Assembly (NCBI GenBank): GCA_018623495.1
Contig: JAAZVP010000022.1
Span: forward strand, 1-40,520
Source: Halothiobacillus sp.
GTDB taxonomy: Bacteria > Pseudomonadota > Gammaproteobacteria > JAAZVP01
Length of the DNA stretch: 40,520 bases
Direction of reading: 5' to 3'
Position 1 is the stretch's first letter. Each line of letters starts with the position of its first letter. This document shows, in pieces, positions 12,767 to 40,326 of the stretch. The notes beneath the pieces were generated by a model. It was not told the DNA's origin, searched no databases, and saw nothing but the letters and a program-made list of their open reading frames with translations. Both the position numbers and the translations under genes were made by a program.

Positions 12767-12797
12767 GTCGATTCTCCTCTAGCTTCAGGCGACCGCT

Positions 12798-15182: not shown

Positions 15183-15190
15183 AAGTTGGT

Positions 15191-15481: not shown

Positions 15482-15647
15482 CAAGGCGCAGGGGCCCCGA
15501 GGGTGCAACGATCAAGAATCCGAGAAGACCGAACCAACGGTAAATGGCCTGGGGCACCTTGCGCCCTTGGCGCCTTGGCGAGAGACATTACCCTCTGCTG
15601 TGTCCTGGCGAGGGATGTCACGCTAAAGTGCGATGAACCTAAAAGTC

Positions 15648-19324: not shown

Positions 19325-20412
19325 ATACGGACAACAACCGCACCATCCGCGCCCGCTTCCATCTCGATTTCGGCGCATTCGCCCTGGACACCGGCGAGTT
19401 CAGCCTGCCCGGCTCCGGCGTGACCGCCATCTTCGGTCACTCCGGCTCGGGCAAGACCACGCTGCTGCGCTGCATGGCGGGCCTGGAGCAGGGGGAGGGT
19501 TATTTGCGATTCGGCGAGGACACCTGGCAGGACGCGAACCGGAAATTCCTGCCGGTCCACCAGCGCCCGCTGGCCTATGTCTTCCAGGAGGCCACCCTGT
19601 TTCCGCACATGGACGTGCGCCGCAACCTGGAATACGGCCTGCGCCGCATCCCGAAGGAGCGGCGCCGCATCACCCCGGAGCAGGCCATCGAGTGGACCGG
19701 CGTGGGCCATCTCCTGGACCGCTCACCGGTGCGCCTCTCCGGCGGGGAGCGCCAGCGGGTGGCCATCGCCCGAGCGCTGCTGACCAGCCCGCGGCTGCTG
19801 CTGATGGACGAACCCCTCTCGGCGCTGGACATCCGCTCCAAGCGCGAGATCCTGCCCTATCTCGAACGCCTGCACCGGGAGCTCGACATCCCCGTGCTCT
19901 ATGTCACCCATTCCCCGGCCGAGGTGGAGCGCCTGGCCGACCAGGTGGTGTTCATGGAGGACGGGCGCATCACTGCCATCGAGACCCTGGCGGAGGCCAC
20001 CAGCCGCATCGATTCGCCGCTGTTCTTCGACGAGGGACCGGTCACCGTCATCGAGGCAAACGTGGATCACCATGACGATGCCTACCACCTGACCCGGGTC
20101 ACCTTCGGCGACCACGGCCTGTGGCTGCCCCGACAGCCGCTCGAACCGGGCACGGCCCTCCGGGTACGCATCCTGGCCCGGGACGTGAGCCTGATCCGCA
20201 GTGCTCCGGAGGAGACCAGCATCCTCAATGTCCTGCCGGTGATCATCACCGGGATGGAGCCCACTGGTCCCGGCAAGCTGGCCGTCACCACCGAAACCCG
20301 GGACGGCCAGACCCTTCTGACCGAGATCACCCGCAAATCCGCCGAGACCCTGGGACTGGAGATCGGACAGCACGTCCATGCCCAGATCAAGGCCGTGGCC
20401 ATGATGGAGTAG
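19321..20412 (+). CDS. modC: Molybdate ABC transporter, ATP-binding protein
   Basis: A 363-residue ABC ATPase. Walker A is GHSGSGKT (39-46), the signature is LSGGERQRVAIARAL (139-153), and Walker B is LLLMDEPLSALD (159-170). The C-terminal part, from about residue 290 (SILNVLPVIITGMEP), is a TOBE/Mop domain that binds molybdate and lets ModC sense cytoplasmic molybdenum. Start ATG at 19321 overlaps the modB stop. It powers the ModAB complex. Length and domain order match E. coli ModC. Confidence 0.95.
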   Translation: MNTDNNRTIRARFHLDFGAFALDTGEFSLPGSGVTAIFGHSGSGKTTLLRCMAGLEQGEGYLRFGEDTWQDANRKFLPVHQRPLAYVFQEATLFPHMDVRRNLEYGLRRIPKERRRITPEQAIEWTGVGHLLDRSPVRLSGGERQRVAIARALLTSPRLLLMDEPLSALDIRSKREILPYLERLHRELDIPVLYVTHSPAEVERLADQVVFMEDGRITAIETLAEATSRIDSPLFFDEGPVTVIEANVDHHDDAYHLTRVTFGDHGLWLPRQPLEPGTALRVRILARDVSLIRSAPEETSILNVLPVIITGMEPTGPGKLAVTTETRDGQTLLTEITRKSAETLGLEIGQHVHAQIKAVAMME

Positions 20413-20418
20413 GCCGAG

Positions 20419-21210
20419 ATGAAAGCCCGCAATCTCCAATCATTCGCCGCCGGCGGGGCCATCGGCACCCTGGGCGGGCTCATGGGCCTGGGCGGCGCCG
20501 AGTTCCGGCTGCCCGTGCTCAAGGGGCTGTTCCGCTTCGCCACCCTCGAGGCCATCTTGCTCAACCTGGCCACCAGCCTGGTCCTGGTGGCCTTCGCCCT
20601 GCTGTTTCGTAGCCAGGCCGTGACCCCCGCCGAGCTCTGGGGGCATGCAGGTCTGGTGCTCAATCTTCTGGCCGGGTCCCTGGCGGGCTCGTGGATCGGG
20701 GCGCATATCGCCAGCCGCATCCACGCCCGCCACCTGGACCTGGCCGTCATGGTTCTGCTGATCGGGTTGTCCATCGTCCTGATGGCCGAGCCCTTCCTCC
20801 ACCTCTCCGGTGGGGGGCCGTTGTTCGACGACCGACTCCTCCTCGCCATTCTCGGTGTCGCCGCGGGGCTCGGCATCGGCCTGGTCAGCAGCCTTCTCGG
20901 CGTGGCGGGCGGGGAACTGCTGATCCCCACCTTCATGTTGCTCTACGGGGTGGACATCAAGCTGGCCGGCAGCCTGGCCCTGGCCGTTTCCCTGCCCACC
21001 CTGGTGGTCGGCCTGCTGCGCTATCGCCGGTCCGACGATTTCCCCGTCATCCGGCGCGAGCGCCGCTTTCTCGCCGCCATGGCCACCGGCTCCATCCTGG
21101 GCGCGGCCATCGGCGGGCTGATGCTGGGCCTGGTGCCCTCGAAATGGCTGACGCTGGGGCTGGGGATCATCCTGCTGATCTCGGCGATCAAGCTGTTTCG
21201 CGGTCACTGA
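20419..21210 (+). CDS. TauE/SafE-family membrane permease
   Basis: A 263-residue protein with about eight membrane segments in two related halves. Glycine-rich stretches AAGGAIGTLGGLMGLGGAEF and GLVSSLLGVAGGELLIPTF are the paired TauE/SafE signature. Members export or import small organosulfur compounds, sulfite or related anions; the substrate cannot be read here. It starts seven bases after modC with a Shine-Dalgarno (GGAG) overlapping the modC stop, so it is in the mod operon. Given its neighbours it could handle a sulfur-containing or metal-related anion such as a thiomolybdate, but this is speculation. Confidence 0.85.
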   Translation: MKARNLQSFAAGGAIGTLGGLMGLGGAEFRLPVLKGLFRFATLEAILLNLATSLVLVAFALLFRSQAVTPAELWGHAGLVLNLLAGSLAGSWIGAHIASRIHARHLDLAVMVLLIGLSIVLMAEPFLHLSGGGPLFDDRLLLAILGVAAGLGIGLVSSLLGVAGGELLIPTFMLLYGVDIKLAGSLALAVSLPTLVVGLLRYRRSDDFPVIRRERRFLAAMATGSILGAAIGGLMLGLVPSKWLTLGLGIILLISAIKLFRGH

Positions 21211-21237: not shown

Positions 21238-22218
21238 ATGCGACTGGGACTGTTCCTGATCATGGAAAACTGGGATGGCGACATCCCCCGGGCCTATGCC
21301 GAGCACATGGAGACCATCCGCCAGGCCGACTGCGTGGGCATCGACGAGCTCTGGCTGGCCGAACACCACTTCAACGACTACTCGGTGAGTCCCTCCCTGA
21401 GCGCCCTGCTGGCCTATGCCGCGGGCATCACCAGCCGCATCGACATCGGGGCCGCGGCCTATCTGCTGCCATTTCACGATCCGGTGACCATCGCCGAGGA
21501 CGTGGCCACCCTGGATATCCTGAGCCACGGCCGGATGCTCTTCGGCGCGGCCAAGGGCGGCCCGTTCGAGCGCCAGAAGGCCCAGTTCGGGGTGGAGGGC
21601 GACGAGGCCCGGGAACGGATGCTCGAGGGGCTCGACCTGGTCCGCCGCCTGCTGGCCGAGACGTCGGTGGATTTCTCCGGCAAGCATTATTCCGCCGAGG
21701 GCCTGACCGTCTATCCCCGGCCCGTGCAGCCTCGGGTCCCGACTTTCATCGCCAGCCGGGACGAGACGGCCATCGCCCTTGCCGCCCGCCACGGCTTCGG
21801 CCTGATGGCCGCCCATGCCTGGGATCTCGACCGCCTGCGCAACCAGCGCGATACCTACCGGGAACACCATCCCGAGGGCACGGCCCCGGAGCTGATGGCG
21901 TCGCGCAGCTTCCTGGTGGCCGAGACCGACCAGGCCGCCCGGGAGGCGGCCCGGCCCCATATCCGCCGGTTCCGGAAACGCATGAGCCGACAGGGCTTCG
22001 GCCAACGGGGCGAGGATGATTTCTTCAACGAGGAGCGGCTGCTGGCCAACGGGGTCATCGGCTCGCCCGAGACCTGCCGCCAAAGGTTGGCGGAACTCGC
22101 CGAGGCCGGCGTGACCCGCGTGGCCCTGAAGCCCGCCACCCGCGACCACGTCCGGGCCCGGGAGTGCCTGGCGGCGGCCGCCAGCGATCTCAAGCCCGCC
22201 ATGGAGGCCTGTGCATGA
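21238..22218 (+). CDS. Luciferase-like flavin-dependent monooxygenase (LLM class)
   Basis: A 326-residue TIM-barrel oxidoreductase of the bacterial luciferase superfamily. The start MRLGLFLIMENWDGD, the active-site strand IDELWLAEHHFNDYSVSPS and the segment TIAEDVATLDILSHGRMLFG are family landmarks. Such enzymes use reduced flavin and oxygen to oxidise organic substrates; related members cleave sulfonates, aldehydes or metal chelators (the EDTA and NTA monooxygenases belong to this class). GGGAG precedes the ATG. The stop overlaps the start of the FecCD-type permease gene as ATGA, so it is translated together with the transporter and may act on the imported chelator. The substrate is unknown. 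Confidence 0.82.
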   Translation: MRLGLFLIMENWDGDIPRAYAEHMETIRQADCVGIDELWLAEHHFNDYSVSPSLSALLAYAAGITSRIDIGAAAYLLPFHDPVTIAEDVATLDILSHGRMLFGAAKGGPFERQKAQFGVEGDEARERMLEGLDLVRRLLAETSVDFSGKHYSAEGLTVYPRPVQPRVPTFIASRDETAIALAARHGFGLMAAHAWDLDRLRNQRDTYREHHPEGTAPELMASRSFLVAETDQAAREAARPHIRRFRKRMSRQGFGQRGEDDFFNEERLLANGVIGSPETCRQRLAELAEAGVTRVALKPATRDHVRARECLAAAASDLKPAMEACA

Positions 22219-23291
22219 ACCAGGCCGTTCGAAGACGGGCCCCTGCAAGCCGGGGACAGCCCACCGGGACACCCGCGGCCACCGTGGCCCGGTCGCGCAA
22301 TATCGCCGCTCGCCCGGCGCTGCTCTTCCCGTTGCTGCTGGGGGCCATGGCCTTTTCCCTCACCCTGGGACGCTATCCCCTGGAGCTCGGCCAGCTCTTC
22401 CAGGCCCTGCTGGGCCAGCTGGATGGCGAGCAGGCAAAACTGGTCTCCGACCTGGTGATGGAGATCCGCCTGCCGCGGGTGCTGGCCGCGGTGCTGATCG
22501 GCATGTCCCTGGCAGTCTCGGGGGCGGCCTTCCAGTCCATGTTCATGAACCCCCTGGTCTCGCCGGGGGTACTGGGCGTGCTCTCCGGGGCCAGCTTCGG
22601 CGCGGCGGTGGGCATGGTGGCCTCCGGCCACTGGATCGTGGTCCAGCTCTGCGCCTTCGGCTTCGGCATGGCCGCGGTGGGCATCGCCCTGCTGATCGGG
22701 CGCATCCAGCGTCAGAACGCCCTGATCCTGCTGATCCTGGGCGGGATCATCAGCGGGGCCTTCTTCAATGCCCTGCTGTCGGTGGTCAAGTACGTGGCCG
22801 ACCCCTACGACGACCTGCCGGCCATCGTCTACTGGCTGATGGGCTCGCTGGCCACCGTGGACAAGGACACGGTCCTGCTGCTGGCCATCCCCATGGTCAT
22901 CGGGATCGGGGTCATCGCCTCGCTGGGCCGGGCCCTGAATGCCCTGTCCATGGGCGAGGACGAGGCCCGCAGCCTGGGCATCCCGGTGCGGGCGGTGAGA
23001 CTGACGGTGATCCTCGCCGCCACCCTGATCAGTGCCCTGACGGTGGTGATGGGCGGGATGATCGGCTGGGTGGGCCTGGTGGTCCCCCATATCGCACGGC
23101 TGCTGGTGGGCCCGGACAACCGGGTGCTGATCCCGGCCTCGGCCATGATCGGCGGGATCTACCTGCTGCTGGTGGACAACGTCTCCCGGCTGGCCTTCAG
23201 CGTGGAGGTGCCCATCGGCATCCTCACCGCGCTGATCGGTATTCCCTTCTTCGCCTGGGCACTGAGAAACGTCAAACGGGGGTGGGGCTGA
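22215..23291 (+). CDS. FecCD-family ABC transporter permease for a metal chelate
   Basis: A 358-residue permease of the FecCD/BtuC type with about ten membrane segments after a roughly 40-residue N-terminal extension rich in Arg/Ala/Pro. Family motifs include EIRLPRVLAAVLIGMSLAVS with GAAFQSMFMNPLVSPGVLGV, and near the end GWVGLVVPHIARLLVGPDNR. The family imports siderophores, haem, cobalamin and, in the MolBCA system of Haemophilus, molybdate/tungstate. ATG at 22215 overlaps the monooxygenase stop. It is the only permease of its class in the window and must serve three binding proteins downstream. Confidence 0.9.
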   Translation: MNQAVRRRAPASRGQPTGTPAATVARSRNIAARPALLFPLLLGAMAFSLTLGRYPLELGQLFQALLGQLDGEQAKLVSDLVMEIRLPRVLAAVLIGMSLAVSGAAFQSMFMNPLVSPGVLGVLSGASFGAAVGMVASGHWIVVQLCAFGFGMAAVGIALLIGRIQRQNALILLILGGIISGAFFNALLSVVKYVADPYDDLPAIVYWLMGSLATVDKDTVLLLAIPMVIGIGVIASLGRALNALSMGEDEARSLGIPVRAVRLTVILAATLISALTVVMGGMIGWVGLVVPHIARLLVGPDNRVLIPASAMIGGIYLLLVDNVSRLAFSVEVPIGILTALIGIPFFAWALRNVKRGWG

Positions 23292-24070
23292 TGCTGGAAG
23301 TCGAGAACCTCCATGCCGGCTATGACCGCACGCGCATCCTGCACGGGATCGACTTCTCGGTGGAGGCCGGGGAGTCCGTCGCCCTGCTGGGCCCCAATGG
23401 CTGCGGCAAGACCACCCTGCTGCGCACCCTGCTGGGGCTGCATCCCGCTTCCGATGGCGAGGTCCGCCTCGACGGACGACCGATAGCCGGCATGCCGGAC
23501 AAGGAGCGGGCCAGGGCCGTGGCCTACATCCCCCAGGTCCACGCCGGGGCCTTCGGCCACCGGGTGGTGGACGTGGCCATGCTGGGCCGCAGCCCCCACC
23601 GGGGCCTGTTCGAACCCTTCACCGACGACGACCGCGAGATCGCCGAGCAGGCCCTGGAGCGGGTGGGCATCGCCGATCTTGCCGAACGTCCCTATACCCA
23701 GGTCAGCGGCGGCCAGCGCCAGCTGACCCTGATCGCCCGGGCCCTGGTGCAGAACGCCCGGCTGTTCGTCATGGACGAGCCGGTCAACGGCCTGGACTTC
23801 GGCAACCAGTTGCGTCTTCTGGACCTGGTCCGGAGCCTTTCCGACCAGGGGCTGACCGTCATCCAGACCACCCACTACCCGGACCACGCCCTGTACAGCG
23901 CCGACCGGGTGATCCTCCTGCACGAGGGCCAGGTCATGGCCAACGGGCCGCCGGAAGCCGCCATGACGCCCGAACGGCTGGCCCGCCTCTACGGCGTGGA
24001 GGCCCGGCTGGCCCGGGTGGGTGAGCGCACCGTCTGCATCCCCGAAAGACTGGCAGCGCCACCGCCCTAG
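23291..24070 (+). CDS. ABC transporter ATP-binding protein paired with the FecCD permease
   Basis: A 259-residue ATPase of the FepC/BtuD/MolC class. Walker A is GPNGCGKT near residue 34, the Q-loop YIPQ, the signature VSGGQRQLTLIARAL, and Walker B LFVMDEPVNGLD. The start codon shares one base with the permease stop (TGATG). With that permease it makes the inner-membrane pump that takes substrate from a class III binding protein. The family alone does not fix the substrate; the mod genes before and after favour molybdenum or tungsten. Confidence 0.9.
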   Translation: MLEVENLHAGYDRTRILHGIDFSVEAGESVALLGPNGCGKTTLLRTLLGLHPASDGEVRLDGRPIAGMPDKERARAVAYIPQVHAGAFGHRVVDVAMLGRSPHRGLFEPFTDDDREIAEQALERVGIADLAERPYTQVSGGQRQLTLIARALVQNARLFVMDEPVNGLDFGNQLRLLDLVRSLSDQGLTVIQTTHYPDHALYSADRVILLHEGQVMANGPPEAAMTPERLARLYGVEARLARVGERTVCIPERLAAPPP

Positions 24071-24238: not shown

Positions 24239-26188
24239 ATGAGGCACCGCAAGACACTCGTAACCGCCTGCTCCCTGTCCCTTGGCCTGGCTGCGGGCAC
24301 CGGCCATGCCGAGCAACTGGATACCGTGGAAGTCACCGACACCCCCCGCATCCAGGACCACCAGGCGCGGCTCGCCGGCGGCATCGACGGCTCACGACCC
24401 CTGACCCTGCCCGCGGCCAGCGCCACGCTGGTCGACCAGATCGACCGGGAGACCATCGAGCGCCTGCCGGTGACCAACAGCTTCGACCTGGTGGACTACG
24501 CCAACGGCGTCTTCTCCCAGTTCCAGGGCCGCAAGATCCCTTTCTTCGCCAATGTCCGGGGCGATCAGTCCCTGGGCATCATCGTCGACGGCGTCTACCT
24601 GCCCTCGCACATCGCCAGCCGGATACTGACCGACCTCCCGCTCTCGGCCATCGAGCGGGTGAGCGTGGTGCGTGATTCCACGGCCCTGAACCTGGGCCCG
24701 CTCACCGCCGACAACGGCGGCTTTCTGGTCATCGAGACCCGTCGACACGATGCCTTCGGCGCCGAGTTGCGGGCCGGGGCGGAGAACTTCGGCCGGGGCT
24801 TTGCCGACATCAACGTCGGCACCCGCAAGGGGGCTTTCGACGGCACCGCCACCCTCGCCGTGGACCACCGCGACGGCCGGGACGGCTGGAACCAGGGCTA
24901 TGCCAACCACGGGGCCTACCTGCGTGGCGGCTGGCAGGGCCGCGCCACCCGGGTCCAGGCCACCCTGTTCGTCGACGATAGCTCACGGGAGGTGCAGCGC
25001 AGCACGCCCGACAGCAACCCCCGGATCTACAACGCCCGCTGGGAGCAGGACCCCATCCGCAGCATCGTGGGCGGGCTGACCGTCCACCACCGCTGGTCGG
25101 ACCACCAGCAGACGGTCCTGCGCTACAGCCAGGCCTACAACCGCACCGATCTCGAGCAGCGCTCCTGGAGCGATCCGGATTTCTTCAACGTCGACAAGAC
25201 CCAGTACCGCTTCCGCAATCTCTCCGCGGTCCACACCATCACCGGCACGAATCGCTCGCTGCGCTTCGGCCTGTCCGAGAACCGCCACGTCACGCCCACC
25301 GGGATGCTCTACTACCACGGCTGGGAGAAGGACGAACAAGTGCTGGGCGGCTTCGTCCAGGGCGAGATGCGCATCGGGGACTGGCACCTCGACGCCGGCC
25401 TGCGCCGGGACAAGCACTACCATGACGTCGGCTACGAACAGGTGGGCCGGCAGCGCAGCCGCATCGAGGACGAGTCCGACCCGGCCCTCGACGCCCTGTC
25501 TCTCGGCGCGCGCCGCGACATCGGCGAGACCCGGACCGTCACCGCCCGGCTGCTCTACAGCGAGCAAAACCAGGACGACTTCGAGACCAGCTCCGGCGAA
25601 TCCCTGGACCAGGAACAGCGGCTCAACTACGAGCTCGGTTACCAGGCCCGCGTCTCCTCGCTGTTCGTCCCCCGGGCCACGATCTACTGGCACAACCTGA
25701 AAAACGCCCGATTTGTGGCCGACGTGCGGCCCGAGTACGACAACTCCGGCAACCTGATCGAATCCCACAACGTCTACGCCGCCTCCGACCGCAGTCTCTA
25801 CGGCACGGAGCTCCAGGTCCGCGGGGCCAGCGGCCGGCTCAGCTACACCGTCAACTACAGCTACGCCCGCTCGGACGACGACGATGCCGATGAGCGCACC
25901 CCGCATCACCGGGCCAGCGCCCACGGCACCTACGCGTTCGGCCAGTGGAGCGCCACCGTGGGCGGGCGCTACCTCGACGAGTTCCTCTCCGGCAACAAGG
26001 CCGGCATGGGCGAGGCCGGCGGCTTCACCGTGGTGGACGCCTCCCTGGACTATCGGATCCCCCGGGGCGACCGGGAGCACCACGTGACGGTCTACGGCCG
26101 CAACCTCGGCGACCGCGAGTACGAGTCCATGTACACCTTCGCCAACGAAGGTGCGGTGTACGGCATCCAGTACCGGCTGGCGTTGTGA
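24239..26188 (+). CDS. TonB-dependent outer-membrane receptor 1
   Basis: A 649-residue receptor. Signal peptide about MRHRKTLVTACSLSLGLAAG with cleavage near GHA-EQLD, then a TonB box (LDTVEVTDT). The plug domain follows to about residue 165 (DQIDRETIERLPVTNSFDLV, IIVDGVYLPS, IERVSVVRDSTAL). The remainder is a 22-strand barrel ending YGRNLGDREYESMYTF and a terminal aromatic-rich strand. It carries a scarce chelate across the outer membrane using TonB energy. It follows the permease and ATPase genes and precedes a binding protein by eleven bases, so these form one import route. Substrate unknown; molybdenum chelate inferred from context. Confidence 0.88.
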   Translation: MRHRKTLVTACSLSLGLAAGTGHAEQLDTVEVTDTPRIQDHQARLAGGIDGSRPLTLPAASATLVDQIDRETIERLPVTNSFDLVDYANGVFSQFQGRKIPFFANVRGDQSLGIIVDGVYLPSHIASRILTDLPLSAIERVSVVRDSTALNLGPLTADNGGFLVIETRRHDAFGAELRAGAENFGRGFADINVGTRKGAFDGTATLAVDHRDGRDGWNQGYANHGAYLRGGWQGRATRVQATLFVDDSSREVQRSTPDSNPRIYNARWEQDPIRSIVGGLTVHHRWSDHQQTVLRYSQAYNRTDLEQRSWSDPDFFNVDKTQYRFRNLSAVHTITGTNRSLRFGLSENRHVTPTGMLYYHGWEKDEQVLGGFVQGEMRIGDWHLDAGLRRDKHYHDVGYEQVGRQRSRIEDESDPALDALSLGARRDIGETRTVTARLLYSEQNQDDFETSSGESLDQEQRLNYELGYQARVSSLFVPRATIYWHNLKNARFVADVRPEYDNSGNLIESHNVYAASDRSLYGTELQVRGASGRLSYTVNYSYARSDDDDADERTPHHRASAHGTYAFGQWSATVGGRYLDEFLSGNKAGMGEAGGFTVVDASLDYRIPRGDREHHVTVYGRNLGDREYESMYTFANEGAVYGIQYRLAL

Positions 26189-26199
26189 GGAGGGCCGTC

Positions 26200-27222
26200 A
26201 TGATCCGCGGAGCGATTCTTGCCACGCTGCTTGCCTGGACGCTCACCGCCCAGGCCGGGCCTTGCCGGTCCGACGGCCCCGTGCCGGAGACGATCTACGG
26301 GGCCTCGCCGCCGGTGACCTACCTGCTGTATTCCCTGGCCCCGGAAAGGCTGGCGGGACTGAACTTCCCGCCCAATGCCCGGGAACGGCGCTTCCTGCAT
26401 CCCGCGGTACTGGACCTGCCCGTGATCGGCGGCTGGTTCGGCCAGGGGCGCACGCCCAACCTGGAGACCCTGCTGGATGTCGATCCGGGCCTGGTGGTCA
26501 CCTCCGCCCACCGCAAGGGCGACGGCCGGATCATCGACACCCTGGACCGCCTGGGACTGGCCACCTGCCAGCTCACCCTCGACCGGCTGGAGGACTACCC
26601 GGCGGCCTATCGCACCATGGGCGAGCGGCTGGGCCTGCCCGAGCGCGGCAAGGCCCTGGCCCGCTACGTGGAGGACGCGCTGGCCCGGGCCGAAACGGTG
26701 ACCGGGGCCATCCCCGCGGATGAACGGCCCACGGTCTATTACGCCGAGGGCCCCGACGGCCTGCAGACCGAGTGCCACCGCTCCTGGCACGCCATGCTGA
26801 TCCCCCGGGCGGGGGGCCTCAACCCGCACCGCTGCGGGCAGCGCTACGGCTTCGGCCGCGAGCGCATCCCCTTCGAGCAGCTGCTCACTTATGACCCCGA
26901 CGTGATCCTGGCCGGCAATCCCGCGCTGCTCGACCACATCGAGAACGATGCCCGCTGGCAGCACCTGCGCGCCGTCCGGGAAGGGCGGGTGTGGGTCATC
27001 CCCCAGGCCCCGTTCAACTGGTTCGACCGTCCGCCCTCGTTCATGCGCGTGCTCGGCCTGCAGTGGCTGCTCCATCGCCTCTACCCCGAACGGGCCGCAG
27101 GCGACCCGGTCGAGATCACCCGCGATTTCTACCGGCAGTTCCTGGGCGTGGACCTCGATGCGGCCACTGCCCGGGCCCTGATCGACGGACGACCCATTCA
27201 AAGGAAAAAAGAGGAGAAATGA
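26200..27222 (+). CDS. Class III (FhuD/TroA-like) periplasmic binding protein 1
   Basis: A 340-residue binding protein. Signal peptide MIRGAILATLLAWTLTAQA, mature start GPCRSDG. It shares with binding protein 2 (31501-32535) the blocks IGGWFGQGRTPNLETL, VYYAEGP.GL.T.CH.S.HA and NWFDRPPSFMR followed by GLQWL..LYPER, so the two are paralogues of one subfamily. The two-lobed fold with a single linking helix is typical of FecCD partners. The Cys/His in TECHRSWHA and the Cys in NPHRCG are possible ligand contacts. Start ATG at 26200 after GAGGAGGG. It should hand substrate to the FecCD permease. Confidence 0.85.
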   Translation: MIRGAILATLLAWTLTAQAGPCRSDGPVPETIYGASPPVTYLLYSLAPERLAGLNFPPNARERRFLHPAVLDLPVIGGWFGQGRTPNLETLLDVDPGLVVTSAHRKGDGRIIDTLDRLGLATCQLTLDRLEDYPAAYRTMGERLGLPERGKALARYVEDALARAETVTGAIPADERPTVYYAEGPDGLQTECHRSWHAMLIPRAGGLNPHRCGQRYGFGRERIPFEQLLTYDPDVILAGNPALLDHIENDARWQHLRAVREGRVWVIPQAPFNWFDRPPSFMRVLGLQWLLHRLYPERAAGDPVEITRDFYRQFLGVDLDAATARALIDGRPIQRKKEEK

Positions 27223-27224
27223 TC

Positions 27225-29186
27225 ATGAGAAAGACACCCCTGGCCATCGGCCTCCTGCTCGCCATCGGCGCCGCGCAGGCCGCCGACAGCGAGACCTTCG
27301 AACTGGGCGTGGTGGAGGTCAACAGCGAGGCTGTGGACCATCCCCAGACCACCGCCGTGGACGTGCTGGACCGCCGGCAGATGGAAAAGCACGAGCGCCA
27401 CGACGTGGCCCATGCCCTGGACATGCTCCCGGGCGTGACCCTCGACCAGAAGGGCAACCGCGGGGAATACACCGCGCTGGTACGCGGCTTCGACTCCCGC
27501 CAGGTGCCGGTCTTCATCGACGGCATCCCGGTCTACGTCCCCTACGACGGCAACGTGGACCTGGGCCGCTTCATGACCGGTAACCTCGCCGAGATCCGCG
27601 TCACCAAGGGGCTCTCCTCGGTGATCTACGGACCCAACGCCCTGGGCGGGACCATCGACCTGGTCAGCCGCCGTCCGCTGTCCGCGTTCGAGGCCAGCGG
27701 GGCAGTGGGCACCCGCTTTGATCGCGAGGGTGACCGGGCGGTCAACCACGGCCGGATCAACCTGGGCAGCAACCAGGGCAGCTGGTACGCCCAGGCCGGC
27801 GTCAGCTACCGCGACCGGGACCACTTCCGCGTCGCCGACGACTTCGATGCCGTCGACGGAGAGCGGGAGAACTCGGACCTCGAGGACCGCTCCGCCAGCC
27901 TCAAGCTCGCCTACACCCCCAACGCCACCGACGAGTACGCCCTGGCCTACTACAACCAGCAGGCGGAGAAGGGCCAGCCGCCCTACGTGGGGGAGGACCC
28001 CAAATTCAAGGTACGCCAGTGGCGCTGGCCGGAATGGGACAAGGAAGGGATCTACTTCATCTCGCACACGGCCCTGGGCGAGACCGGCTATGTGGAAAGC
28101 CGGCTCTACCATGACAAGTTCGACAACACCCTGATCGGCTACAAGGACGACACCTACACCGACTACCGGTGGCGCAGCGTCTACGACGACCACACCACCG
28201 GGGCCAGCCTGGAAGGCGGCTGGCAGGCCGGCCGCCATGCCATCCGCCTGGCCGGTCACTACAAACGCGACTACCACGAAGAAATCGATCCCGACGCCCC
28301 GGCCGACCCGCACCCGGAATACGAGGACGAGACCGTCTCCGTCGCAGCCGAGGACACGGTGACCTTCACCGAACGGCTCAAGGTCACCTTCGGGGCCAGC
28401 GTCGACCGCCAGGACACGGTTACCGCGAAAGACTTCGACAACGCCACCTTCGGCGAGCTGGAGACCGGCGCCGACGAGGCAGCCAACCTCCAGGCCCAGC
28501 TGCATTACGCCCTGGACCCCAATCACGACCTCTTCGCCGAAGCCGGCCAACGCACCCGCTTCGCCACCATCAAGGAGCGCTACTCGCGCAGTTTCGGCCG
28601 CAAGAAGCCCAATCCCGACCTGGAAGCCGAGACCGCCAACCACTTCGAGCTGGGCCTCGACGGCATGGATCCCGGCCGGCACCACTACCGGGTGGCCGTG
28701 TTCTACAGCGCCCTGGAGGATGCCATCGAGCGCGGCGCGACGGACGACCCGAACTACGAGTTCCAGCTGCAGAACGTGGGCGAGGCCGACCACTACGGCA
28801 TCGAGTTCTCCGGCGGCATGAACCTCGGTGCCCGGACCCGCCTGGCCGGCAACTACAGCTACGTGCGCAAGGACCTGGAAGGCGACCTGGTCGCCACCGA
28901 CATGCCCGAACACCAGGCCTTCGCCGAGATCGAGCACGACCTAGGGGACCGCTGGACGCTGATGGGCACCGCCGAGTACGCCAGCGAGCGCTACGCCTTC
29001 AGCTACACCGACGACGAACACGTCGCCGACGGCTACACCCTGCTGGGTCTCCAGGCCCGCTACCAGCGCAGCCAATGGGACCTCACCGCCGGCATCGACA
29101 ACCTGGCCGACGCGGACTACGCGCTCGAGGAAGGCTTCCCCGAGCCCGGCCGGACCTTCTACGTCACCGCCGGTTTCCGACTTTAA
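27225..29186 (+). CDS. TonB-dependent outer-membrane receptor 2
   Basis: A 653-residue receptor. Signal peptide MRKTPLAIGLLLAIGAAQA, then ADSETF and the TonB box region LGVVEVNSEAV. Plug motifs are DVLDRRQMEKHERHDVAHAL, LVRGFDSRQVPVFIDGIPVY and GLSSVIYGPNALGGTIDLVS; the barrel ends with IDNLADADYALEEGFPEPGR and a final Phe-rich strand. The start is taken as the ATG at 27225 with GAGGAG eight bases upstream; an ATG two codons earlier overlaps the previous stop but leaves only two bases to the ribosome binding site. The plug is of the classic type, with clear similarity to siderophore and vitamin receptors. Confidence 0.88.
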   Translation: MRKTPLAIGLLLAIGAAQAADSETFELGVVEVNSEAVDHPQTTAVDVLDRRQMEKHERHDVAHALDMLPGVTLDQKGNRGEYTALVRGFDSRQVPVFIDGIPVYVPYDGNVDLGRFMTGNLAEIRVTKGLSSVIYGPNALGGTIDLVSRRPLSAFEASGAVGTRFDREGDRAVNHGRINLGSNQGSWYAQAGVSYRDRDHFRVADDFDAVDGERENSDLEDRSASLKLAYTPNATDEYALAYYNQQAEKGQPPYVGEDPKFKVRQWRWPEWDKEGIYFISHTALGETGYVESRLYHDKFDNTLIGYKDDTYTDYRWRSVYDDHTTGASLEGGWQAGRHAIRLAGHYKRDYHEEIDPDAPADPHPEYEDETVSVAAEDTVTFTERLKVTFGASVDRQDTVTAKDFDNATFGELETGADEAANLQAQLHYALDPNHDLFAEAGQRTRFATIKERYSRSFGRKKPNPDLEAETANHFELGLDGMDPGRHHYRVAVFYSALEDAIERGATDDPNYEFQLQNVGEADHYGIEFSGGMNLGARTRLAGNYSYVRKDLEGDLVATDMPEHQAFAEIEHDLGDRWTLMGTAEYASERYAFSYTDDEHVADGYTLLGLQARYQRSQWDLTAGIDNLADADYALEEGFPEPGRTFYVTAGFRL

Positions 29187-29267: not shown

Positions 29268-31487
29268 ATGTTGAGAAAACGCAGCCGCCTCTTTTTCACG
29301 GGCGTGGCCCTGTGCGCCAGCCAGGCCGTGCTGGCCGAGGCCCTGGAGCCCATCACCGTGAACGGCCACGCCCCCACGGCCAACGGGGTGACCGCCGCCG
29401 AGTCGCCCGTGGGCACCCGGGAGGACGTCTCCCGCGAGTCCATCGCCATCCAGGGCGGCGCCGAGCAGACCAGCCACTACAAGGCCATCCGCATGGTGCC
29501 GGGGGTGGACGTCACCTCGCCCGATCCCTTCGGCATGGAGTCCACGCTGCGCATCCGTGGCAAGAACCACTCCAACCACGGCCGTACCGGCGAGACCGTG
29601 GAAGGCCTGCCGATCAAGGGCATCGGCCCGGGACTGGGGATCATCGTGGACCTGGAGAACACCCAGGGCATCGGCGTGACCAAGGGGCCGGTCCCCGCCG
29701 ACGAGGGCTTCGGCTTCGGCAACGACGTGGGCATGGTCGACCTGCGCCTGCGCCGGCCCGCCGAGCGCTTCGGCGGCACCGCCAAGCAGGCCCTGGGCAT
29801 TGATGACTTCACCCGCACCTTCGTTCGCATGGACAGTGGCCGGATGGGGGATGTCGGCCAGGCCTTCGTCTCCGGCTCCTACACCGAGGCAGACAAGTGG
29901 AAGGGCGAGGGCGGCTCCCCGGACGGGCGCAAGAACCTGGCCTTCGGCCTGACCGGCACCCCCGAGCAACCCGTGGACTGGGAGATCTTCGGCCTCTACA
30001 ACGACCTGGAAAAACACGAGTACCGGGGACTGACCTATCCCCAGATCCAGGATCTCGGGGACAACATCGACTTCGACTACAACGACGAACTCACCGGCGA
30101 TCCGGCGAAGGACGTCAACTACTACGACTACAACCGCGAGGAGTTGGAGGCCTGGACCCTGATGGGCCGGCTCACGGCGCCGGTGGGCGATCAGTCCGAC
30201 ATCACCATCAAGCCGTACTTCTCCCGCGAGGAGGGCTTCCGGCTGTTCGGCAACGGCACCAAGGTGATCCGCTGGCTGATCGAGCATGACACCTATGGCG
30301 CAACGGCGCAGTGGCGCCGGGAGATCGAGAACGGTGAGGTGAAGGTCGGCTACTGGTACGGCGAGCACGAGCCGCCGGGACCGCCCACGGCCATGAAGGC
30401 CCTGAATACCGGCGACCTCTCCTTCGCCAAGTGGGCCCGGCTGGAGAAGGCCACCAACCACGAGTTCCACAGCCCGTTCGTCAGCTTCGACAAGCAGCTG
30501 GGCCGGACGCGTGTGGCCGGCGGGCTAAAGTATCTACGCATGACCTCGCCGGATGTGCGCATCTACGACACCCAGGGCCTGACCGACGCCAGCTACGACG
30601 ACGTCTTCGCCCAGGACCCGGCGGTCACCCTGCACCTGGAGGACCAGACCCACGAGCTCTGGCTGCCCAACCTGGGGATCACCCACCCGCTCTCCGACAA
30701 ACTGTTGCTGCGGGCGAGCTACGGGCGCAACTACTACACGCCCAACTACTCCTTCGGCGGCCAGGTGCTGGCCATGCAGAAGAAACTGTCGGATGAACAG
30801 CTCAATGCCCTCTGGCTGGACCTGGAGCCCGAGATCTCCGACAACATCGACGTCGGCCTGACCTACACCTGGGACCGCGGCTTCGTCGCCCCCACGCTGT
30901 TCGTCTCCGAGGTGGAGAACAAGGGCGGCAACCTGTTCGATCCCGATCTCGGCCTGGAACATCACCAGAACAACGGCGAGGCCCGTTCCTACGGGCTCGA
31001 ACTGGCCGCCGGGTATGAGCTCACACCCAGCCTCACCGCCAATGCCGCCCTGACCTACAACCGCTACGAGTTCACCGAGGACCTGGCCGGTGCCGGCGGC
31101 ACGCCCATCGAGGCCGAGGGCGAGCAGATCCCCAACGTGCCGGAATTCATGGCCAACGTCTCCGCCGACTGGCGCACCCTCGGCTTCACCGTGACCCCGG
31201 TTGTCCGCTACGTGGGCAAGCGCTACAGCGACGTGGAGAACGAGCAAAGCGTCTCGGACCACACCCTGGTGGATCTGACCGTCACCCGGCAGATGCCCGT
31301 GGGGGCGGACCGCCTGCTGACCCTCCAGGCCTCGGTGACCAACCTGTTCGACGAACAGTACATCGCCATCATCGACGCCCCGGACGCCGCCTCGCCCACC
31401 CAGACCGGTGCCGGCAGCGTAGGCAGCACCCGCTATCAGCCGGGCGCACCGCGGGCCTTCTTCGTCACCGCCCAGATCGACTTCTGA
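29268..31487 (+). CDS. TonB-dependent outer-membrane receptor 3
   Basis: A 739-residue receptor, the largest of the three. Signal peptide MLRKRSRLFFTGVALCASQA with cleavage near LAEALEP, TonB box LEPITVNGH, plug with MVPGVDVTSPDPFGMESTLR followed by IRGKNHSNHG and GVTKGPVPADEGFGFGNDVG. The barrel ends LQASVTNLFDEQYIAI and finishes FFVTAQIDF. It belongs to a different subgroup from receptors 1 and 2. ATG at 29268 has AAAGG seven bases upstream; a start 12 codons earlier lacks a signal-like beginning. Binding protein 2 follows after 13 bases, pairing this receptor with it. Confidence 0.87.
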   Translation: MLRKRSRLFFTGVALCASQAVLAEALEPITVNGHAPTANGVTAAESPVGTREDVSRESIAIQGGAEQTSHYKAIRMVPGVDVTSPDPFGMESTLRIRGKNHSNHGRTGETVEGLPIKGIGPGLGIIVDLENTQGIGVTKGPVPADEGFGFGNDVGMVDLRLRRPAERFGGTAKQALGIDDFTRTFVRMDSGRMGDVGQAFVSGSYTEADKWKGEGGSPDGRKNLAFGLTGTPEQPVDWEIFGLYNDLEKHEYRGLTYPQIQDLGDNIDFDYNDELTGDPAKDVNYYDYNREELEAWTLMGRLTAPVGDQSDITIKPYFSREEGFRLFGNGTKVIRWLIEHDTYGATAQWRREIENGEVKVGYWYGEHEPPGPPTAMKALNTGDLSFAKWARLEKATNHEFHSPFVSFDKQLGRTRVAGGLKYLRMTSPDVRIYDTQGLTDASYDDVFAQDPAVTLHLEDQTHELWLPNLGITHPLSDKLLLRASYGRNYYTPNYSFGGQVLAMQKKLSDEQLNALWLDLEPEISDNIDVGLTYTWDRGFVAPTLFVSEVENKGGNLFDPDLGLEHHQNNGEARSYGLELAAGYELTPSLTANAALTYNRYEFTEDLAGAGGTPIEAEGEQIPNVPEFMANVSADWRTLGFTVTPVVRYVGKRYSDVENEQSVSDHTLVDLTVTRQMPVGADRLLTLQASVTNLFDEQYIAIIDAPDAASPTQTGAGSVGSTRYQPGAPRAFFVTAQIDF

Positions 31488-31500: not shown

Positions 31501-32535
31501 ATGACCATGAAACGAATCATGAAGGGCGGTCTTCTGGCCTCCCTGCTGGCCACGATCCCCGCGGGGGCCGCCGGACCGGATGACGCGGGCAGCGTCTACG
31601 GCTCCTCGCCTCCCGCCGCGATGCTGGTCTATGCCCTCGATCCCGAGTTGCTGGCGGGGACAGTCTATCCCCTCGCGGGCCGGGAGCGACCCTACGTCGA
31701 TCCCCGGATGGCCGAACTCCCCCGCATCGGGGGCTGGTTCGGCCAGGGTCGCACCCCCAACCTGGAGACCCTGATGAGCGTCGAACCCGAGCTGGTGGTG
31801 GCCTGGGACAACCCGGTCTTCGTCGAGCGGATGGGGGATACCGTGGACATCCTCGGCCATGAACTGCTGACCCTGCCCCTGGGCACCGTCACCCAACTGC
31901 CCGATAGCCTGCGCCGACTGGGTCGGGCCGTGGACCGGGAGGAGCGGGCCGAGACCCTGGCCCGATACGCCGAGGACAAGCTTGCCGAGGTCCGGGCCGT
32001 ACGGGAATCCATCCCCGAGGACGAGCGCCTGCGGGTCTACTACGCCGAAGGCCCGGGCGGGCTGAAAACCGATTGCCACCAGTCCTTCCACGCCGAGCTC
32101 GTCGAGCTGGCCGGCGGCTACAACGTCCATCGTTGCCAGCAGCAGACCATCTTCGGCCGCCAGGGCGTGGACCTGGAACAGGTGCTGACCTATGACCCGG
32201 ACGTGGTCCTCGCCTTCAGCCGGAAATTCCACCGGCGCGTCACCGAGGGCGACACGGCCTGGGCCATGGTCCGCGCGGTGGACGAGGGCCGGGTGTACTT
32301 CATCCCCCGCACCCCCTTCTCCTGGTTCGACCGACCGCCGTCCTTCATGCGCCTGATCGGCCTGCAGTGGCTGACCCATACCCTCTATCCCGAGCGCTAC
32401 CCCATCGACCTGGAGGCCGAGGTGCGCGAGTTCTACCGCCTGTTCCTGGACGTGGAGCTCTCCGACGAGGACCTGGCCGGCATCCTCGCCGGAACCAGCG
32501 CCCAGCCCCTGCCGATGCACCGGCGAGCGCCATGA
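31501..32535 (+). CDS. Class III periplasmic binding protein 2
   Basis: A 344-residue paralogue of binding protein 1, with the same blocks IGGWFGQGRTPNLETL, VYYAEGPGGLKTDCHQSFHA and SWFDRPPSFMRLIGLQWL. Signal peptide MTMKRIMKGGLLASLLATIP, with AGAAGPDD at the cleavage region. Conserved Cys and His in TDCHQSFHAE and the Cys in NVHRCQQQ match those of protein 1 and may contact ligand. The ATG at 31501 has AGGAG upstream. Its stop overlaps the start of binding protein 3 (ATGA). Having two similar binding proteins each beside a different receptor suggests that each recognises a variant of one chelate. Confidence 0.85.
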   Translation: MTMKRIMKGGLLASLLATIPAGAAGPDDAGSVYGSSPPAAMLVYALDPELLAGTVYPLAGRERPYVDPRMAELPRIGGWFGQGRTPNLETLMSVEPELVVAWDNPVFVERMGDTVDILGHELLTLPLGTVTQLPDSLRRLGRAVDREERAETLARYAEDKLAEVRAVRESIPEDERLRVYYAEGPGGLKTDCHQSFHAELVELAGGYNVHRCQQQTIFGRQGVDLEQVLTYDPDVVLAFSRKFHRRVTEGDTAWAMVRAVDEGRVYFIPRTPFSWFDRPPSFMRLIGLQWLTHTLYPERYPIDLEAEVREFYRLFLDVELSDEDLAGILAGTSAQPLPMHRRAP

Positions 32536-33569
32536 TCGACCGAGGACGCCGACAGGCCCTGATGACGCTCCTCGCTCTGGCCGTCACCGGGCCGACTCAC
32601 GCCTCGGGGGGACGGGTCATTACCGACATGGCCGGCCGCCGGGTCCGGCTGCCCATCCGCCCCCGGCGCATCGCCACGGTGGGCGGCGTGCCGGCGATGA
32701 ACAGCTTCCTGTTCGCTCTTGGCGCCGGGGAGGCCATCGTCAACGGGCTGCCCAATTTCGCCCGCAAGCCCCAGTGGCGAATGCAGACGGTCCTGGCGCC
32801 GCATCTCGCCAAGCAGCCGGCCACCCAGGGCGCCCACGCCGTGCCCCAAGTGGAGACGCTGCTGCAGCTCCGCCCGGAGGTGGTGTTCACCATGATGCCC
32901 CAGCATCTGCCGTTGCTGGAGCGGGCCGGGCTGCCGGCGGTCTATCTCTCCTGGAAGGAGGCCGAGGCCGAACCGGCCACCAGCATCCGGCACACCATGC
33001 ACCTGATGGGGGAATGCCTGGGACGGGAGGAACAGGCCGCGGCCTATCGGGACTGGTTCGATACCGTGCTCGATAGCGTCACCGAGCGGGTCGACGGGCT
33101 GCCCGATTCGGTCCGGCCCCGGGTGCTGTTCTGTCACCTGCGCACGTTTTCCCAGCAGTTTCGCATCGTCAACGACTGGATCGCTGCCGCCGGCGGGCTG
33201 AGCGTCACCCGGGACCTTCCCCATGACAACGATCACCTGTCGCTGTCGCTGGAGCAGGTCCTGGCCTGGGACCCCGAAGTCCTGCTGCTCTGGAGCCCGG
33301 CCGATCGCGAGCGTCTGGAAAACGACCCGCGGCTGCGGCATCTGCGCGCGGTCCGTGAGGGCCGGGTGCATGTAGCGCCCAGTGGCGCCCATCCCTGGGC
33401 CTCGTGGACCGCCGAGCATCCGCTGATGGTGCGCTGGGCCGCCCAGCATTTCTTCCCCGACCGTTTCTCTCAAGAGGAACTGAGACGAACCGTGCGCGAT
33501 TTCTACACGCACTTCTACCAACACCCCATGGATGTGCGGGCCGTGCAGCGGCTGCTCACGCCCGCCTGA
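32532..33569 (+). CDS. Class III periplasmic binding protein 3, divergent, possible Tat substrate
   Basis: A 345-residue binding protein of the same broad fold but a different subfamily: VITDMAGRRVRLPIRPRRIA is the usual start of FecB/BtuF-type proteins, followed by PQVETLLQLRPEVVFTM and LSLSLEQVLAWDPEVLLLWS with a C-terminal RFSQEELRRTVRDFYTHFY. The leader MIDRGRRQALMTLLALAVTG has consecutive arginines before a hydrophobic stretch, which suggests Tat rather than Sec export. It lacks the GGWFGQGRTPNLETL block of proteins 1 and 2. Translationally coupled to protein 2 and followed by the globin genes. Confidence 0.83.
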   Translation: MIDRGRRQALMTLLALAVTGPTHASGGRVITDMAGRRVRLPIRPRRIATVGGVPAMNSFLFALGAGEAIVNGLPNFARKPQWRMQTVLAPHLAKQPATQGAHAVPQVETLLQLRPEVVFTMMPQHLPLLERAGLPAVYLSWKEAEAEPATSIRHTMHLMGECLGREEQAAAYRDWFDTVLDSVTERVDGLPDSVRPRVLFCHLRTFSQQFRIVNDWIAAAGGLSVTRDLPHDNDHLSLSLEQVLAWDPEVLLLWSPADRERLENDPRLRHLRAVREGRVHVAPSGAHPWASWTAEHPLMVRWAAQHFFPDRFSQEELRRTVRDFYTHFYQHPMDVRAVQRLLTPA

Positions 33570-33582: not shown

Positions 33583-34203
33583 ATGACCAAGACACGCCAA
33601 TCCGCCCCCGTTCACGACGACGACCGGACCCGCGAGGTCCACAGCTTCGAATCCTCGGTCAGGGGCTGCCCGGCGCAGGCCCGCAAGCCCGACTTCGGCG
33701 GCAGCGAGCCCCGGGTCGTACCCGAGATGGTGGATATCGTCTACCCCCATGTGCCCTTCCCCACCCAACGCGTTTTCGAGGCCGCCGGCGAGGCCCTGAT
33801 CCGGGAACTGGTCCATCACCACCACGCCCTGCTGATCCAGAGCCGGGTGGGGCACCTGTTCAGCGACGACGAGGCGCACTTTCTCGAATCCGTGGAACGC
33901 ACCGCGGACTTCTTCGTGGAGATGTTCGGCGGACCGAAGCATTTCACCCCCGTCCACGGCCAGCCCCACCTGCGCGAGCGCCACTTTCCGGTGGCCATCA
34001 CCGAGGCCGATCGCATCACCTGGCTGGAGCTGTTGGCGCAGGCCATGGTGGAGGTGGGCTTCCCCGCCGAGGTTCGCGAGGAGGTCTGGAACTGGGTGGA
34101 GCCGCTCTCCATCCGCATGATCAACCGCCGTACCCGCATGGAAGGGGTGGAGCGCCTGTCTTTCGACGACGTCGCCATCTTCCGGGAGGAGGCCCCGGCA
34201 TGA
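33583..34203 (+). CDS. Truncated-hemoglobin-like protein 1
   Basis: A 206-residue protein with a globin core at about residues 62-182. It carries the group II truncated hemoglobin pattern: FFVEMFGGPKHFTPVHGQPH followed by LRERHFPVAI, with the probable proximal haem ligand His134, then ITWLELLAQAM. An extra N-terminal stretch of about 60 polar residues (including a single Cys29) precedes the globin. At the B10 position, where family members usually have Tyr, I align His81, within HHHH (78-81). AAGGAG precedes the ATG at 33583. Such proteins bind O2, NO or sulfide; having one in a metal-uptake operon is unexpected. Globin identity is by motif; function is open. Confidence 0.72.
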   Translation: MTKTRQSAPVHDDDRTREVHSFESSVRGCPAQARKPDFGGSEPRVVPEMVDIVYPHVPFPTQRVFEAAGEALIRELVHHHHALLIQSRVGHLFSDDEAHFLESVERTADFFVEMFGGPKHFTPVHGQPHLRERHFPVAITEADRITWLELLAQAMVEVGFPAEVREEVWNWVEPLSIRMINRRTRMEGVERLSFDDVAIFREEAPA

Positions 34204-34718
34204 CCGCGAATGCCAACCACCCCCGGGGCTGTCGAGGCCTCCGCCACGGCTTTCCCGAGGCCCCCTTTGCGGGGGCCCATGTCTACGAAATGCTGGGGGA
34301 AGCCACCATCCGCCGGATGGTCACCCGCCACCACGAGCTGCTGTGGCGCAGCCCGTCCGGCCATCTGTTCGGGGAAAACGCGGCTCACTTCCGCCAGGCC
34401 GTGGCCCGTACCGCGGACTACTTCGTGGAGATGCTGGGCGGCCCCAAGCATTACACCCCGGTCCAGGGCAATCCCCGTCTGGGCAAGCGCCACCAGCCCT
34501 TCGCCATCGGCCCCGAAGACCGGGAGACCTGGCTGCGATGCCTGGCCCGGGCCATGCGGGAGGAGGGCATCCCGGCCGAAGTGATGGAGGAGATCTGGGC
34601 CTGGGTGGAACCGCTGTCCATGCGCATGCTCAGTCCCCGGCGTGACCCGGCGAGCCTGGAGCGCATCGAGCTGGAGACGGCCGGGGATGGCCCAGTGGCC
34701 GAGTCGATACGCGCTTGA
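34200..34718 (+). CDS. Truncated-hemoglobin-like protein 2
   Basis: A 172-residue paralogue of the preceding protein, start overlapping its stop (ATGA). The globin core has YFVEMLGGPKHYTPVQGNPR followed by LGKRHQPFAI with probable proximal His98, then RETWLRCLARAM and EEIWAWVEPLSMRML. As in protein 1 the presumed B10 Tyr is replaced by His (His45 in TRHHELLW). It lacks the long N-terminal extension. The two may form a heterodimer or sense/bind a diatomic gas; a role in reduction or release of the imported metal is a guess. It is the last plus-strand gene before modD on the other strand. Confidence 0.72.
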   Translation: MTANANHPRGCRGLRHGFPEAPFAGAHVYEMLGEATIRRMVTRHHELLWRSPSGHLFGENAAHFRQAVARTADYFVEMLGGPKHYTPVQGNPRLGKRHQPFAIGPEDRETWLRCLARAMREEGIPAEVMEEIWAWVEPLSMRMLSPRRDPASLERIELETAGDGPVAESIRA

Positions 34719-34791: not shown

Positions 34792-35637
34792 TCAACGGGG
34801 CTCCAGGGTCACCCCGATATCGGCAGGCGGGACGTAGTAGACCGAGCTCAGCACCAGGCCGTCGACGCCGGTGGCGGCGTAGTCGGCGACGTTGTCTTCC
34901 CGGATGCCGCCGGCGGCGAGCAGCGTCAGGCCGGGATGGTCGCGGCGCAGGCGCCGGACGTTTTCGGTGAGCTCGTCCACGGGGCGCTTGTCGAACTGGA
35001 TGCCGTCCACTCCGGCGCGGGCGGCCACCAGGGCCTGGTCCAGGTTCTCGACCTCCACCAGGACCTTCTTCTCGGCCACGGCGGCACGATTGGCCCGCAC
35101 CCGCTCCAGGAAGCCTTCCAGCCCGCCGACGAAGTTCAGGTGCTGGTCGAAGGCCAGCACCGTCTCGGAAAGGCCCAGTCGGTGGGGCCAGAGGCCGCCG
35201 GCGCGGATGGCCTTGGTGACCACCTTCTTCACCCCGGGCGGGTGCTTGCGGGTGGTGAAGAGCATGATCTCGGGGTTGGCCCGGCGGGCCTCGGCGAGCA
35301 TGTCCCGGCCGCGGGTGGCGATACCGCAGGCGTATTCCAGCAGGTTGAGGCTGACCTTCCAGGCGCGGTGGAGGGCCCTGGCGGGGCCGTGGGCCGCCAG
35401 CAGCGACTCGCCCTGCTCGGCGTCCTCGCCCGAGGCCCGCAGGTCGATGACCTCGGCGCCCAGGCGCTGGATGATCTGGGCGGCTTCCTCGGTTCCGGAG
35501 ATGCGGGTGGCATGCCGGGCGCGGAAGGTGATGCGGGCCGGGGTGGCATCGATGCCCGCCAGTTCGCTGGTGAGATCCACCAGCGGGGCGTCCTCGTTGA
35601 TCCAGTGATCGATCAGGGGCTGCTCGAAGAAGACCAT
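34792..35637 (-). CDS. modD: ModD, molybdenum utilisation protein (NadC-like)
   Basis: A 281-residue protein of the nicotinate-nucleotide pyrophosphorylase (NadC)-like ModD family. Core features: TRISGTEEAAQIIQRLGAEV, ATRGRDMLAEARRANPEIML, FTTRKHPPGVKKVVTKA, GLWPHRLGLSETVL and a C-terminal barrel part LTLLAAGGIREDNVADYAAT. ModD genes occur with modABC or nif genes; their exact reaction is not settled. In this genome de novo NAD synthesis is a possible alternative but the motif set is ModD-like. Its start is four bases after the molbindin stop, on the strand opposite to the uptake genes and convergent with globin 2. Confidence 0.88.
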   Translation of the reverse strand: MVFFEQPLIDHWINEDAPLVDLTSELAGIDATPARITFRARHATRISGTEEAAQIIQRLGAEVIDLRASGEDAEQGESLLAAHGPARALHRAWKVSLNLLEYACGIATRGRDMLAEARRANPEIMLFTTRKHPPGVKKVVTKAIRAGGLWPHRLGLSETVLAFDQHLNFVGGLEGFLERVRANRAAVAEKKVLVEVENLDQALVAARAGVDGIQFDKRPVDELTENVRRLRRDHPGLTLLAAGGIREDNVADYAATGVDGLVLSSVYYVPPADIGVTLEPR

Positions 35638-35641: not shown

Positions 35642-36061
35642 TCAGTCCACCCCGATGATTACCGAGGAGGCCTTGATCATGGCGCAGGCCCGCCGGCCTT
35701 CTGCCAGTGCCAGTTCGTCGGCGGAGTCGTTGGTGATCACCGCGGTGACGCGCGTATCGCCCCCCACCTCGAGGACCACCTCGGTGTTCACCGCGCCGCG
35801 CTCGCAACGGATGATCTCGCCGCAGAGGTTGTTGCGCGCGCTGGTGCGCAGGAAGTCATCGTGGAGGATGACCGAGCTGGCCTTGATGATGGCGTAGGCC
35901 GGGCGGCCCTCCTCCAGCCCGAGGGCCTCGGCACTGGTGTTGGTGATCATGGAGACGATCTGCTGCCCGCCGGGAAGGCCGATGACCACCTCGGTGTTCA
36001 CCGCGCCCTGCTTGAGTTCGCGGACCTCGCCCGGGAGCTGATTGCGTGCGCTGACCTTCAT
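35642..36061 (-). CDS. Molbindin: two tandem Mop (TOBE) domains
   Basis: A 139-residue protein made of two Mop domains (about 1-68 and 70-139), each with SARN.L.G.....(K/R)GAVNTEVV and ending AIIKASSVI or AMIKASSVI. This is a ModG/Mop-type cytoplasmic molybdate-binding store that oligomerises to hold several oxyanions. Start ATG at 36059-36061 with AAGGAGG seven bases upstream. It leads the two-gene unit with modD. Its presence downstream of the receptor and binding protein genes closes the island with a dedicated molybdenum-handling protein, the strongest contextual hint for the island's substrate. Confidence 0.92.
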   Translation of the reverse strand: MKVSARNQLPGEVRELKQGAVNTEVVIGLPGGQQIVSMITNTSAEALGLEEGRPAYAIIKASSVILHDDFLRTSARNNLCGEIIRCERGAVNTEVVLEVGGDTRVTAVITNDSADELALAEGRRACAMIKASSVIIGVD

Positions 36062-40321: not shown

Positions 40322-40326
40322 GTGTT

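Follow-up and report, generated by a model that had tools for sequence, protein, structure and literature searches.

Two truncated globin genes of a Halothiobacillus species lie in tandem at the end of a long operon which, judged from its gene content, most likely imports molybdenum or tungsten, and their products group with Hell's Gate globin IV (HGbIV), a crystallised protein of the methanotroph Methylacidiphilum infernorum. What is new is the genomic context of HGbIV-type globins, not the two adjacent histidines of the distal pocket. We consider it highly probable that the two globins are HGbIV-type proteins and part of a molybdenum-acquisition operon. As a whole, the best explanation, to which we assign a probability of roughly 0.55, is that cytoplasmic HGbIV-type globins process imported molybdenum species together with a luciferase-like (LLM) flavoenzyme. 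The window analyzed, the whole stretch of 40,520 nucleotides of the contig, contains the operon and its flanking genes (Table 1).

Gene content of the operon and its host

Fifteen genes, all on the forward strand, run from modA to globin 2, none of them separated from the next by more than 198 bases, and globin 1 starts 13 bases after the last binding-protein gene. The FecCD/MolB-type permease scored 224 bits against HI1471 (2nq2), 165 bits against the next entry and about 149 bits against BtuC. Substrate-binding protein 2 matched HI_1472 (MolA) with an E-value of 3e-13 but matched 4pag, a chain to which no substrate is assigned here, at 8e-78; its plasmid homologues adjoined molybdenum genes in three of the four plasmids examined (Azospirillum, Shinella and Indioceanicola), and the homologue on the Paracoccus plasmid adjoined a TonB receptor without molybdenum genes. 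Previous studies showed that MolBC-A imports molybdate and that MolA binds molybdate and tungstate (PMC4031551). The transporter of the operon resembles MolBC-A of Haemophilus influenzae (HI1470/71/72) in the homology of its permease and binding protein, whereas the Halothiobacillus run adds three TonB receptors, three binding proteins and modABC. The initial annotation had placed the globins within a metal-uptake operon beside chelate importers. The operon is borne out, the globins being the last two genes of the run that begins with modA, and so is the uptake system; the unspecified chelate, however, gives way to molybdenum or tungsten as the most likely cargo, as modABC, the MolB-like permease, ModD and the molbindin indicate. 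A Rfam riboswitch controlling the operon was considered and dropped; the only match upstream was to TwoAYGGAY.

Table 1. Positions and assignments of the operon genes and of the two molybdenum genes that follow on the opposite strand
Feature	Coordinates	Strand	Basis or remark
modA, molybdate-binding protein	17516..18433 (start uncertain)	+	NCBIfam TIGR01256, 211.6 bits, cut-off 62.5
modB-type permease	18632..19324	+	Pfam BPD_transp_1, operon position
modC-type ATPase	19321..20412	+	ORF, 4-base overlap with modB; named from sequence and context only
TauE/SafE family anion permease	20419..21210	+	homology
LLM (luciferase-like) flavin-dependent oxidoreductase	21238..22218	+	subfamily members adjoin Mo-linked or TonB/MolBC genes
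FecCD/MolB-type permease	22164..23291 (true start probably slightly downstream)	+	best PDB match HI1471 (MolB)
ATPase partner of MolB-type permease	23300..24070	+	
TonB-dependent receptor 1	24239..26188	+	Pfam Plug
Periplasmic substrate-binding protein 1	26185..27222	+	41% identical to the LLM-adjacent binding protein of L074
TonB-dependent receptor 2, TonB-siderophor-like	27219..29186	+	
TonB-dependent receptor 3	29268..31487	+	
Periplasmic substrate-binding protein 2, MolA-related	31501..32535	+	homologues beside modA, TOBE, MoeA-type or formate dehydrogenase genes
Periplasmic substrate-binding protein 3	32532..33569	+	Pfam Peripla_BP_2
Globin 1, HGbIV-type, 206 aa	33583..34203	+	Pfam, PDB match, alignment, AlphaFold model
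Globin 2, HGbIV-type, 172 aa	34200..34718	+	Pfam, PDB match, alignment
modD	34792..35637	- (convergent with the globins)	NCBIfam TIGR01334 over cut-off
Molbindin, two Mop/TOBE domains	35642..36061	-	NCBIfam TIGR00638 over cut-off, Pfam TOBE

The host genome encodes MoaC and SoxC, which points to a need for molybdenum, and SoxC is the molybdoenzyme identified in it. Nitrogenase was dropped from consideration because no PF00148 match was present in the genome, and bis-MGD molybdoenzymes were dropped because the single PF00384 match was NuoG. The soxC gene stands with a soxD-like cytochrome gene elsewhere in the genome (L101) and carboxysome and RubisCO genes lie upstream of the operon (8640-14348, reverse strand), the picture of a carbon-fixing sulfur oxidiser; the order of the host had no other genome in the comparison set. 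An element of 199 bases occurs at 15187-15385 and again at 40323-40520 with 91% identity, possibly an intergenic repeat dispersed in the genome, and its first copy abuts the TwoAYGGAY RNA match (15373-15484, reverse strand, 56 bits).

The globin pair and Hell's Gate globin IV

Both products matched the Pfam family Bac_globin (PF01152; globin 1, 64.2 bits; globin 2, 79.6 bits; cut-off 21), and the assembly, estimated to be 99% complete, contains no PF01152 gene besides these two. The homology E-values, 1e-17 to 1e-40, mean that a chance match of the pair is not at issue. The two proteins share 53% identity over 145 aa. Their genes overlap by ATGA at 34200-34203, as the initial annotation had described for a coupled tandem, and a Shine-Dalgarno-like sequence (AAGGAG, GGAGG) precedes each of them; a search for a terminator directly after globin 2 found none. 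Inspection by eye revealed no signal peptide, and both globins are presumably cytoplasmic.

Helix positions were numbered after M. tuberculosis trHbO, a sequence that served this numbering only, and 59 ordinary group II globins (trHbII) from Pseudomonadota genomes served as comparison rows. The GGP turn and the proximal R-H (F8) that had been recognized as a group II pattern are present in both globins, as is Trp G8 (globin 1, F8 His134 and G8 Trp147; globin 2, F8 His98 and G8 Trp111), and Tyr B10, which is typical of group II truncated haemoglobins but does not strictly define them, is absent from both. Tyr B10 usually stabilises bound O2. Both proteins carry His-His at B9-B10 (globin 1, His80-His81; globin 2, His44-His45), while the ordinary rows carry Phe B9 in 57 of 59 and Tyr B10 in 58 of 59; the histidine that had been proposed at B10 from a hand alignment is therefore confirmed. 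Position E11 is Thr in both globins, and globin 1 has Phe93 at the CD corner. In the large alignment the CD1 column of the HGbIV rows was shifted by a gapped loop, and an ungapped HGbIV alignment was used for it instead.

The best PDB match of both globins by sequence was 4nk1/4nk2, Hell's Gate globin IV with bound phosphate (globin 1, 142 bits; globin 2, 105 bits; next best entries, 53 and 64 bits), and globin 1 was 43% identical to HGbIV over the aligned part. By residue count in the pairwise alignment, His70(B9)-His71(B10) of HGbIV fall on His80-His81 of globin 1 without gaps, and the histidine pair of globin 2 also aligns ungapped with them. According to a paper later than the primary HGbIV report (PMC4476040), HGbIV has unique extensions at both termini, its distal site is large and polar, with a specifically conserved His70(B9)-His71(B10) motif placed to bind phosphate, and the protein is hexacoordinated as purified. 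The initial annotation was right to expect an unusual distal pocket. HGbIV, the nearest solved relative, has the same histidine pair and is there reported as hexacoordinated; the pocket type with His B10 is not new, being already known from HGbIV. The AlphaFold model of globin 1 had a mean pLDDT of 66, with core helices at about 80-96 and a disordered N terminus, and a fold search with it placed the HGbIV entries on top (E 5e-11; ordinary trHbII, 3e-5). In a maximum-likelihood tree a branch with 100/100 support separates the ordinary globins from a set that comprises the globin pair, HGbIV, a homologue from Methylacidiphilaceae and the nif-linked proteins (see below); a long-branch warning applies to this split.

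HGbIV and the globin pair have in common His-His at B9-B10, Ser/Thr E11, Trp G8 and the F8 His, and HGbIV shares with globin 1 an extended N terminus and an extended C terminus. The alignment of globin 1 reaches HGbIV residue 189, whereas globin 2, unlike HGbIV, lacks the long N-terminal extension, its N terminus being shorter and its C terminus divergent. Globins of the trHbO kind (1ngk, 2bmm, 1ux8, 2xyk) resemble the pair in the 2-on-2 fold, GGP at the EF corner, the R-H proximal region and Trp G8, but have Phe-Tyr instead of His-His at B9-B10 and Leu instead of Thr at E11, and fall in a separate tree group. On these alignments we regard the globin pair as new members of the HGbIV type, a kind already known.

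Globins of this type were found rarely. A profile search of genome contigs with a three-row alignment returned a single further HGbIV-type locus, in a Methylacidiphilaceae MAG (L034 9716-10480), where a single globin gene, the closest relative of HGbIV in the genomes covered, stands directly 3' of a gene cluster for urease, a nickel enzyme, without mod, TonB or LLM neighbours (the urease genes were named by eye from translations), in contrast to the translationally coupled tandem that ends a molybdenum operon in Halothiobacillus. No other HGbIV-type globin was found in 369 Gammaproteobacteria, 398 mixed Pseudomonadota, 279 Alphaproteobacteria and 274 relatives (overlapping samples, one of them searched without a positive control), and none was found in viral contigs; the best matches retrieved from those genome samples were rejected as ordinary trHbII.

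Relatives beside nifQ and the LLM enzyme

A tblastn search of 72,556 plasmids with globin 1 matched 'hypothetical proteins' of two Paraburkholderia nif clusters, each encoded by the gene that immediately follows nifQ. Among 300 Burkholderiaceae genomes, 12 from three genera had such a relative, directly after nifQ in every case. Downstream mod genes were present in 10 of these 12 loci: eight had a full-length LLM gene together with the mod genes (closely packed in seven, interrupted by an insertion of about 7 kb in the eighth), two had mod genes without LLM, and the remaining two had damaged globin copies and LLM remnants without mod genes. The nifQ-linked proteins (e.g. WP_208645435.1) scored 47-92 bits against HGbIV-type globins and 29-44 bits against the best ordinary trHbII. 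They resemble the HGbIV type in sequence kinship, N- and C-terminal extensions and His B9, which is kept in undamaged copies, and their neighbours are LLM and modBAC genes. They differ from the globin pair in having Met at B10, Gly in place of the proximal His, no Pfam globin match and extra conserved cysteines, including an N-terminal motif (TPCTRACY), and are annotated as hypothetical proteins only (L035 8704-9333; L087-L096). From these substitutions, they are probably not ordinary haem proteins. Both Halothiobacillus globins keep the F8 His and are therefore relatives, not members, of the nif-linked subgroup. Because the nif-linked relatives lack the proximal His, haem gas chemistry cannot be the job of the whole branch.

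The LLM enzyme of the operon scored 185 bits against the nif-mod LLM and 197 bits against a Methylovirgula LLM, and at most 84 bits against the others among the plasmid matches listed. Of 339 Gammaproteobacteria, a single additional genome had a member of this subfamily at E below 1e-40 (L074 10205-11113), in an operon of TonB receptor, binding protein, LLM, MolB and MolC genes without a globin, which indicates that globins are dispensable for an operon of this kind. The settings of the subfamily are TonB/MolBC operons (21238-22218 of the window, and L074), nif-mod clusters and Methylovirgula, where the LLM gene (L067 12001-12984) adjoins a gene annotated as xanthine dehydrogenase. On a plasmid with nodulation genes (L036 9854-11395) and in two genomes (L097, L098), the nifQ-linked gene was diverged or damaged, with an LLM remnant and no modBAC, as if the globin relative, LLM and mod genes decayed together.

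The neighbourhood survey that had been proposed gave a mixed answer: relatives in Burkholderiaceae lie beside nifQ, usually with LLM and modBAC, but in Methylacidiphilaceae the gene comes after a urease operon, and the molybdenum link is accordingly not universal. By common descent, the Burkholderiaceae nif loci are not independent of each other and amount to roughly one event. Given this shared ancestry, the urease locus and the globin-less L074 operon, we treat the molybdenum link as an observation in two lineages and not as a rule.

Possible roles of the globins

In the mechanism that we favour, the globin pair would be transcribed jointly with the molybdate/tungstate operon whose end it forms. 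The three TonB receptors and three binding proteins would feed the MolBC-like importer encoded next to ModABC, and inside the cell the LLM flavoenzyme would reduce or oxygenate an organic ligand or supply electrons. The large polar globin pocket (His B9, His B10, Thr E11 and Trp G8) would bind an oxyanion or ligand near the haem, and the molybdate released would pass to molbindin and cofactor synthesis. Any contact between globin and molybdenum, and the chemistry itself, belong to the conjectural part of this scheme, and that the globins act in a specific oxyanion or chelate step is only a tentative proposal. Since the HGbIV pocket is reported to hold phosphate, an oxyanion, it could also hold molybdate or tungstate.

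The strongest alternative, though an improbable one, is that the globins scavenge gas or peroxide (as NO dioxygenases or against O2 or peroxide), a role put forward for other truncated globins, and protect the sulfur-oxidising cell or the uptake step, the operon providing only their regulation. Both proteins retain the proximal His and Trp G8, which would suit such a role, polar pockets of truncated haemoglobins have been tied to radical and peroxidase chemistry (PMC4720485), and the genome has no other PF01152 globin that could take it on. However, Tyr B10 is gone across the whole HGbIV group, and the relatives at molybdenum loci in nif clusters have lost the haem ligand, which argues against haem gas chemistry as a shared function. 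It is unlikely that the globin branch as such was recruited to molybdenum, with the His pocket binding molybdate, tungstate or a molybdenum complex by the haem and the nif branch being haem-free and handling molybdenum between NifQ and the importer.

A further and quite unlikely reading, which follows the initial annotation, is that the globins are bis-His haem proteins which donate electrons for the reduction of a metal chelate, in the manner of siderophore reductases, or which bind sulfide. HGbIV is indeed reported as hexacoordinate when purified (PMC4476040), the operon encodes a flavin oxidoreductase, and the host is a Sox sulfur oxidiser (SoxC); but the HGbIV crystal has phosphate at the histidine pair and the sources consulted do not name the sixth haem ligand, no reductase domain was seen in the globins, and release of Mo(VI) need not involve reduction. 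Least probable of all is that the globin genes are bystanders inserted by chance at the operon end without a role in metal handling, for although HGbIV-type genes are rare and elsewhere lie beside urease genes and the related L074 operon has no globin, the short spacing from the last binding-protein gene, the overlap between the globin genes, their duplication, after which both copies retain the pocket, and the separate occurrence in nif clusters of this globin branch together with the LLM subfamily and mod genes all speak against it.

The processing of imported molybdenum species by the globins and the LLM enzyme remains our preferred reading. A limited literature search found no earlier description of the tandem arrangement, the molybdenum operon or the nifQ-linked kinship, and in the literature searched HGbIV, whose crystal has an anion at the double-histidine pocket, had been assigned no role. 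The molybdenum-operon setting, together with relatives between nifQ and modBAC, gives a concrete hypothesis, and diazotrophic Paraburkholderia offer tractable hosts. Taken together, our results suggest that an odd branch of the globins serves molybdenum handling; if this is true, molybdenum would be a new cargo for the globin fold, and the branch would supply a missing step in the delivery of molybdenum to nitrogenase and molybdoenzymes.
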